37,105 nt of DNA from Thioalkalivibrio halophilus. Lineage in GTDB: Bacteria > Pseudomonadota > Gammaproteobacteria > Ectothiorhodospirales > Ectothiorhodospiraceae. The notes beneath the pieces are model-generated. The model was not told the origin of the DNA and made no database searches. It saw only the letters and a list, made by a program, of their open reading frames with translations. Positions 40 through 1,249 of the stretch are shown here, piece after piece. The position numbers and the translations under genes are program-made. The stretch is taken from positions 1 through 37,105 of the forward strand of contig NZ_MUZR01000029.1 of NCBI RefSeq assembly GCF_001995255.1. Reading direction: 5' to 3'. Within the stretch, counting starts at the first letter, position 1. Every line of letters starts with the position of its first letter.

Positions 40-833
40 GTCTTAATCCCCTTTCAGTCGGGGCATCGGTCAGACGAAACGTTCGCGGAACAGGATCCCA
101 CAGTCTGGTCTTAATCCCCTTTCAGTCGGGGCATCGGTCAGACGGAGTACACCGTCCAGGAAATCCTGGACATCGGGTCTTAATCCCCTTTCAGTCGGGG
201 CATCGGTCAGACTACTCGATAGGCACGATAAGGCGTTGGAAACGCGTCTTAATCCCCTTTCAGTCGGGGCATCGGTCAGACCCACAGCCCATGAATGCTG
301 AAACACGCGTTCATGGTCTTAATCCCCTTTCAGTCGGGGCATCGGTCAGACTGCCCCGGGGCAGGAGGCGTTCGTGATGGCCGTCTTAATCCCCTTTCAG
401 TCGGGGCATCGGTCAGACAAGCCATGAAATTCACTGACAGCGGAAAATATCGTCTTAATCCCCTTTCAGTCGGGGCATCGGTCAGACCCCCCACGGACGG
501 GAACCCCATAAGGAGGGGTTGTCTTAATCCCCTTTCAGTCGGGGCATCGGTCAGACCCGAGGGGTGGTCTATATGCGTCGGCCCGGGCGGTCTTAATCCC
601 CTTTCAGTCGGGGCATCGGTCAGACGCCCGCCTCTTCGAAGCTCTGCAGTCGTTCTGGGTCTTAATCCCCTTTCAGTCGGGGCATCGGTCAGACGCTCCG
701 AGGCTGTTCGGTACGCCGACTCTTACAGTCTTAATCCCCTTTCAGTCGGGGCATCGGTCAGACGGAACAATAAGGAGAAGTAATCATGCCCGACCACGTC
801 TTAATCCCCTTTCAGTCGGGGCATCGGTCAGAC
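40..833 (-). CRISPR. CRISPR array, 12 repeats and 11 spacers, no cas genes in window
   Basis: Twelve identical 36-bp repeats start at 40, 108, 177, 246, 316, 383, 452, 521, 590, 659, 728 and 798. On the plus strand each begins GTCTTAATCCCC and ends GCATCGGTCAGAC. The spacers are 31-34 bp and all different. A CCCC/GGGG pair inside the repeat can form a short stem. Read on the minus strand, the repeat ends in ATTAAGAC, which resembles the 8-nt 5' handle of many class 1 crRNAs. I therefore infer minus-strand transcription, with the leader right of 833 and the oldest spacers on the left. The subtype cannot be assigned without cas genes; type III or a type I system is possible. Bases 1-39 contain no further repeat, so the array either ends there or has an unusually long next spacer. 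Identical repeats at both ends argue against decay of the array itself. Confidence 0.97.
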
Positions 834-861
834 TCTTTCGCCGCGAAAACCATCGCTACTT

Positions 862-1249
862 TCAACAGGTTGCCAAGCCCACATTTGCACCATAATGGTG
901 CAACGAAAGTTTGCTTGTTGAGCCGCCATGAACATGGCCAAGGGTAGCTTGCTGGGGAGGCGCCCCGCAAGTCGCCAACGTGCCGCCACTGCAACCCGCG
1001 AGGGTATCGAACAATGCGAAGAAAGATTCCGCCGAATTGCCTGAGCGCGCCACGGCCAGCTCCGGGCCACCCCCGATGCCGACAGCCTCGACACCCGGGA
1101 AGACTCGCCTGGATTCGTGCCACATTCTCCGCGCGTCGCACCATGAGATCGCCGTTGGTTACCCTCAGACAGGCGGGCCCCGCAAGGTTGTCGCCCATGA
1201 CATACGTCGAGAATCCTTCTAGCCTGTTCCAAACACCGAAATGGGACTA
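862..1249 (-). pseudogene. Probable frameshifted remnant of an unidentified gene
   Basis: On the minus strand, reading down from a stop at 1247-1249, one frame gives protein-like sequence that includes GFSTYVMGDNLAGPACL and then VRRAENVARIQASLPG. Near position 1100 the sensible reading jumps to another frame, continuing VEAVGIGGGPELAVARSG and then NSAESFFALFDTLAG, and ending at a stop near 862. The joined product has an even mix of hydrophobic and charged residues and looks more like a real protein than either frame alone. Upstream of the stop a further stretch in the same frame (PRDWRSTLYVG) also looks coding. No family is recognised. The alternative is chance open frames in GC-rich DNA. The NtrC-like dyad falls inside the last codons. 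Confidence 0.3.
886..902. promoter_or_regulatory. NtrC-type binding site (perfect dyad) beside the CRISPR array
   Basis: The sequence TGCACCATAATGGTGCA is a 7-3-7 palindrome, extended by one more base pair on each side (885-903). It matches the enterobacterial NtrC (NRI) consensus TGCACY-A-N3-TGGTGCA at every defined position. It lies 53 bp outside the last repeat at 833, on the presumed leader side. NtrC sites normally act as enhancers for sigma-54 promoters. I looked on both strands and found no correctly spaced -24/-12 promoter nearby, so the target is unknown. Array control, a remnant of a lost nitrogen-regulated gene, or coincidence are all possible. Confidence 0.55.

Follow-up and report, generated by a model that had tools for sequence, protein, structure and literature searches.

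A predicted NtrC operator kept at a fixed place in a type III CRISPR-Cas leader of Thioalkalivibrio halophilus

The CRISPR array and its leader

The window analysed here, a stretch of 37,105 nucleotides from Thioalkalivibrio halophilus, represents a whole contig (C29 of the genome G000; NZ_MUZR01000029.1 of assembly GCF_001995255.1), which starts inside a CRISPR array, so that the array extends past the contig start. At positions 1-39 the contig start falls within a spacer. Due to this, the array is probably longer than the 12 visible repeats, with its far end on another contig. Since the contig starts within the array, cas genes past the other end of the array lie outside the view, and judged by eye no cas genes are present among the ORFs of the contig.

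The minus-strand repeat ends in GGGATTAAGAC, as do many related arrays, and the 834-1000 side is conserved beside a second array of the same genome, located on contig C8. Both observations point to this side as the leader, which is the side presumed in the first-pass annotation. Read from the repeat, the leader displays an IHF-like site, a dyad and an element containing AACT, in this order:

40 to 833, minus strand: CRISPR array with 12 visible 36-nt repeats, minus-strand repeat GTCTGACCGATGCCCCGACTGAAAGGGGATTAAGAC
834 to 885, minus strand: repeat-proximal leader of 52 bases, 19-30/52 identical between pairs of the four congeneric leaders
860 to 872, minus strand: IHF-like site CAACCTGTTGAAA, 8/9 consensus letters, 26 bases from the repeat, shuffle p 0.025
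885 to 903, no strand: dyad, a 19-bp perfect palindrome enclosing the NtrC-type 17-mer at 886-902
908 to 915, minus strand: AGCAAACT element, its AACT 75-78 bases from the repeat

The palindrome is odd and reads TTGCACCAT-A-ATGGTGCAA (arm 9, gap 1). It extends by one base per side beyond the 17-mer TGCACCATAATGGTGCA, which was matched exactly at 886-902, where it had been reported. The accompanying distance of 53 bp to the array holds as the offset of the first dyad base, whereas the bases between the last repeat copy (798-833) and the dyad number 52 (834-885). A sigma70 promoter of the leader, read by eye, was discarded since a promoter scan found none.

Occurrence of the dyad within the genome

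Allowing up to two mismatches, the 17-mer is present at one place in the window and in 0 of 100 window shuffles. The core GCACCN5GGTGC occurs once in the window with 0.16 occurrences expected, and 15 of 100 shuffles contain it at least once. Due to this, the core within the window taken alone is weak evidence.

For the search of the genome, which comprises 2.87 Mb, the strict dyad was defined as TGCACCN5GGTGCA and the reversed motif was used as control. The strict dyad is present at two places, C29:886-902 and C8:13288-13304, and the control at none. Each of these copies belongs to the leader of a type III CRISPR array and is separated from the first repeat by 52 bases. Loose matches mean little, since at up to two mismatches the reversed control also reaches 82 places, against 300 for the dyad. 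Within a phylum sample of 398 genomes the only dyad matches were these same two, and viral contigs scanned for the dyad together with the repeat end gave no match. A scan of contigs for the dyad together with AGTTTGC yielded four stretches, two from the congener Thioalkalivibrio sp. ALE14 and two from unrelated MAGs (L060 and L061), the latter being taken as chance matches.

The second array and its type III locus

The dyad at C8:13288-13304 is located in the leader of the second array, whose repeat differs by one base from that of the window. Past the dyad, the block AAAGTTTGCTTGTTGAG is shared with the window leader. The array is flanked by type III effector genes on one side and by Cas2 and Cas1 on the other. 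On the effector side, a RAMP protein (TIGR03986), Cas6 and weak matches to Cmr4 and Cas10 are found, and a gene for a Csm6 ring nuclease follows further along the locus. Here, Cas1, Csm6 NE0113, TM1812 and RAMP TIGR03986 score over the NCBIfam cut-offs, and Cas6, Cas2 and RAMP over the Pfam cut-offs. This identifies a predicted type III CRISPR-Cas locus beside the C8 array, in which Cas10/Cmr2 is represented by below-cut-off matches only. The first of two Cas2-like genes was identified by eye; in Allochromatium vinosum the annotated gene order is cas2-cas2-cas1.

Conservation and absence in related leaders

A search with repeat and leader resulted in matches in 4 of 144 genomes, the own genome counted. 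One of these, G021, is taken as Thioalkalivibrio sp. ALE14 (contig C12, NZ_AQXY01000012.1). Its two arrays of the window repeat type carry TGCACCATCCTGGTGCG and TGCACCATTGTGGTGCG, with the core 53 bases from the repeat in both, equal to the window, and with one outer base of the dyad missing. The first-pass annotation had asked for conservation beside the array and had named absence from relatives with the same array and leader as an argument against its reading; this congener keeps the dyad at the same leader position. For the remaining genomes, G032 has a related repeat and no dyad, and G143 gave a weak match in which no array was found.

The ALE14 contig harbors two further arrays (L137, 18001-28942) with a different repeat and a second Cas1. 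Their leaders show an IHF-like site 24 bases from the repeat, and no dyad was found in them, the best match having 4 mismatches. As repeat and Cas1 both differ, these arrays leave the weight of the explanations below unchanged.

The four congeneric leaders (window, C8 and two of ALE14) were aligned gap-free from the repeat. Within the dyad 13 of 17 columns are invariant, compared to 19 of 113 elsewhere (Fisher p 1.6e-6). Pairwise identity amounts to 14 or 15 of 17 within the dyad, and between dyad and repeat to the 19-30 of 52 listed above. Variation within the dyad is confined to the three bases of its centre and to one outer base.

A fifth leader was found by a search of 369 genomes of the class with the C8 Cas1. 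It belongs to G061, a gammaproteobacterium of another family with a Cas1 44% identical and a different repeat. This leader carries CGCACCCGAATGGTGCG, with the core at 54, one base further than in the congeners.

For a broader comparison, 40 loci were fetched, 14 of which gave no array. The resulting set of 29 leaders comprises repeats ending in ATTAAGAC or ATTGAGAC, the repeat end being trimmed in two of them. Not included were eight arrays whose repeats end differently (L140, L148-L154); among the palindromes listed for them (at most six per array) there is no GCACC-type dyad. The exact core is present in 5 of the 29 leaders. In the last 100 bases of the other 24, the best matches have 2-5 mismatches at scattered offsets. 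Setting aside the four leaders aligned above, the probability that any of the remaining 25 would have the exact core at 53-54 is about 1e-4. The Sphaerotilus plasmid L161 has no dyad.

On the array strand, nine leaders of the Cas1 clade have the IHF-like site (YAANNNNTTGATW) at a distance of 26-27 bases from the repeat, namely those of the window, C8, G061, G082, both of G409, G102 and two of Allochromatium. In single leaders its p ranges from 0.005 to 0.185, and in C8 a minus-strand match elsewhere outscores the one at the fixed offset. Summed over the 29 leaders, the best score is 209, whereas 200 shuffles average 181.4 and reach 193 at most. In both ALE14 leaders the score is not above shuffles and only the right half of the site is present. 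Taken together, an IHF-like site is predicted at a fixed offset, and it is weak in both ALE14 leaders.

Column by column, 9 of the 13 Cas1-clade leaders were tabulated. The table does not cover array 1 of A. vinosum, two G409 arrays and G032, four leaders which lack the AACT element and were excluded for this reason. AACT is found at 75-78 in eight of the nine and at 77-80, two bases further, in G082. The array of G082 at 11376 of L117 (G082:C10:44000-63000) has a leader palindrome, ACCGGCCGCGAAAAAGCTAACTTTTTCGCGGCCGGT, with 16-base arms, which encloses the AACT element and lies 62 bases from the repeat. The Allochromatium plasmids L159 and L160 also carry type III loci whose Cas1 proteins are relatives within this clade, and pALVIN01 of A. 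vinosum carries two arrays with unlike leaders.

The dyad is missing in the sister lineages G102, Allochromatium, G082, G409 and G032, which belong to the same Cas1 clade. Most of these dyad-less lineages keep the IHF-like site and several keep the AACT element. On the Cas1 tree, the dyad is found in two branches, G000 with G021 (support 100/98) and G061, whose sisters G102 and Allochromatium (99/96) are without it; support for the entire clade is weak (82/71). This distribution would imply that the dyad is either old and was lost more than once or was gained twice.

Predicted assignment of the dyad to NtrC

The NtrC consensus of enterobacteria is given as TGCACCAnnnTGGTGCA in PMC8743547, and a similar enhancer sequence appears in a table of PMC4987338. 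The consensus fit that had been claimed for the window is borne out with 14 of 14 letters. C8 fits equally well, both ALE14 dyads reach 13/14 and G061 reaches 11/14. Conserved and free positions of the dyad also agree with TGCACCAnnnTGGTGCA, the free centre being three bases.

A genome devoid of NtrC had been named as a ground for abandoning the idea. Here, NtrC is encoded at C35:91845-93269 (TIGR01818, 712.8 bits, cut-off 558.6), and the C-terminal domain of this protein matches the NtrC domain structure 1ntc (E 1.5e-15). 1ntc, which we take to be a three-alanine variant of the domain, has alanines at the R, N and R within GWGRNTLTRK of the own NtrC.

The first-pass annotation had further proposed to look for the dyad in front of glnA, glnK or amtB. 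In the own genome this expectation failed, since no strict dyad is located at nitrogen genes and the two CRISPR leaders hold the sole strict copies. Upstream of ntrB (G000:C35:90591-90651, L057) three NtrC-like sites are present, 22 bp apart and with 3, 3 and 1 mismatches.

Within 500 bp upstream of the glnK-like PII genes of the own genome (L191, G000:C6, NF007946) and of ALE14 (L186), neither a dyad at up to three mismatches nor a sigma54 promoter scoring 8 or more is present. Both the dyad and the sigma54 promoter of the congeners' glnK are missing here. It is as though, in the species whose CRISPR leaders contain the dyad, glnK had escaped from regulation by NtrC.

Across the family the strict dyad is present in 24 of 47 genomes, at 32 places in total. 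Two of these places are the own leaders and 24 were read, within 23 loci, one in each of 23 other genomes. In 16 of these 23 the dyad is located by nitrogen genes:

PII gene (glnK), dyad 177 to 183 bp upstream: L172, L173, L174, L177, L178 and L179
ntrB, dyad upstream: L163 and L184, over cut-off; L182, just under
nifL, dyad upstream: L162, L165 and L167, all over cut-off
gltB, dyad upstream: L164 and L166, cut proteins below the full-model cut-off
ureA, dyad about 1 kb upstream with one unassigned ORF between: L175 and L180

The six PII genes were assigned by NCBIfam NF007946, two scoring over and four just under the cut-off. In L168 the strict dyad lies beside a TorF porin, and the remaining six loci (L169, L170, L171, L176, L181 and L183) are without gene assignment. 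For glnK of both congeners tested, a sigma54 promoter with 10/11 letters follows the dyad. With nitrogen genes at 16 of 23 loci and this promoter, the strict dyad can be regarded, at the sequence level, as the family's NtrC operator, and the predicted identity of the leader dyad as an NtrC operator is well supported.

A candidate gate on leader function

What, then, would an NtrC operator do in a CRISPR leader? The dyad is a single site per leader, and it lies between the IHF-like site and the fixed AACT element, where spacer integration would assemble. Its position would therefore suit spacer integration at least as well as transcription. This affects the first-pass annotation, of which the NtrC-type site stands, whereas the suggested link of nitrogen status to array expression is not well supported, the site being single and sigma54 promoters in the leader regions scoring 8/11 at best.

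Two further targets were considered and dropped. A role for the cas operon does not fit the arrangement of the loci, since two of the four congeneric leaders, those of the window and of ALE14 array 1, keep the dyad without an adjoining cas2-cas2-cas1 start, the latter facing the end of a csm6 gene. This argues that the dyad serves the leader. A role for a gene to the right of the window leader was rejected as well, because by eye there is no conserved gene there and the other dyad-bearing leaders have other neighbours.

Our preferred reading, which we hold to be somewhat better than an even bet, is that the dyad is an NtrC operator gating leader function, being either integration or transcription. 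Under nitrogen limitation, phosphorylated NtrC would bind the dyad as a dimer adjoining the DNA bent by IHF, and its occupancy would change what the leader does. A non-activating role appears likelier, given the lack of a recognisable sigma54 promoter and the placement of the dyad between the upstream leader and the first repeat. NtrC would then either gate spacer integration at the first repeat or block transcription of the pre-crRNA, the former being slightly favoured. More tentatively, and at rather less than even chances, NtrC could act beside IHF as an architectural or blocking protein that controls spacer integration or array reading by nitrogen status. In general, the sequence comparisons suggest that nitrogen supply may influence this CRISPR system.

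Alternative explanations

The chief rival states that the dyad is read by the Cas1-Cas2 integrase or another host factor during integration, as an upstream or anchoring motif that is brought to the first repeat by IHF bending, and that its likeness to an NtrC site is coincidental. This would explain the fixed offset and register of the dyad with the integration point as well as the IHF-like site between dyad and repeat. It is also in line with published work: in IHF-folded type I-F leaders Cas2 contacts conserved inverted repeats (PMC12259127), and type III-B Cas1-Cas2 is IHF-dependent in vitro (PMC8211822). However, half-site and three-base gap both equal the NtrC consensus, which is unlikely as a coincidence, and close relatives of this Cas1 manage without the dyad. 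We consider this rival possible, though rather unlikely.

Far less probable is that the dyad is bound by a regulator devoted to CRISPR, either Csa3-like or some other dimeric HTH protein. The conservation pattern is of the dimer type and archaea have Csa3 regulators (PMC8699464), but among 19 distinct ORFs taken from the loci of C8, ALE14 and G061 a Pfam scan revealed no HTH protein.

Classic activation, in which NtrC at the dyad would drive sigma54-dependent transcription of the array, the divergent cas operon or a neighbouring gene, is a still fainter prospect. It could draw on the dyads of C8 and ALE14 array 2, which are also upstream of a divergent cas2-cas2-cas1, and on the congeners' glnK, where the dyad is arranged with a sigma54 promoter. 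It is unlikely because the best match to TGGCAC-N5-TTGCA in the five dyad-bearing leader regions is 8/11; furthermore, the window array and ALE14 array 1 have their dyads apart from the start of the cas operon.

That the dyad acts in the leader transcript, as an RNA hairpin or a terminator, is very improbable. It could form a 7-bp stem with a 3-base loop, but its arms are preserved as sequence. In ALE14 a change on the array strand breaks the outer pair, while G061 has the outer pair changed on both sides and the inner pair broken, which leaves no consistent compensatory change, and 780-1300 of the window contains no terminator-like site. To a chance resemblance without function we give almost no credence, since the one point in its favour, the 0.16 occurrences of the short core expected in the window, is outweighed by position data, namely two strict copies against none for the control, both array-adjacent, the same offset in four congeneric leaders with otherwise diverged adjoining bases, and a fifth leader from another family with the core within one base of that offset.

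Implications

If the preferred reading of the dyad as an NtrC operator gating the leader is true, a core nutrient regulator would be wired into the DNA element controlling CRISPR arrays, and starvation would be tied to phage immunity. If the integrase motif is the true explanation, the dyad would represent a compact new leader motif for spacer integration in type III systems, a little-known process. Either way, the fixed anatomy of IHF-like site, dyad and AACT element provides defined parts.

In the literature searched, no title or abstract opening reports an NtrC site at a CRISPR leader. The work of Buyukyoruk et al. (2025) is reportedly a catalogue of leader motifs and may list this one. In a 2023 review of CRISPR regulation (PMC10013973) the term 'ntrc' does not occur.

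Comparison with known systems

With the NtrC operators of enterobacteria, as described in PMC8743547, the leader dyad shares the sequence, the symmetry and the three-base centre. The likeness extends to the presence of NtrC in the genome and to the same dyad at glnK, ntrB, nifL, gltB and urease genes of relatives. In contrast to these operators, the dyad lies in a CRISPR leader, is single and has no recognisable sigma54 promoter.

Leaders of type I-E systems are folded by IHF and contain upstream motifs. These leaders and the IHF-folded leaders of type I-F (PMC12259127) resemble the ones described here in that an IHF-like site lies close to the repeat, with a symmetric element further upstream at a fixed offset. 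Here, however, the locus is of type III, its Cas1 belongs to another clade, and the symmetric element, absent from sister lineages, reads as an NtrC operator.

Regulators acting at CRISPR leaders or cas promoters are known with H-NS and LeuO (PMC10013973). Like these and Csa3, the putative regulator of the present leaders would be a DNA-binding protein with a site in the leader region; unlike them, NtrC responds to nitrogen.
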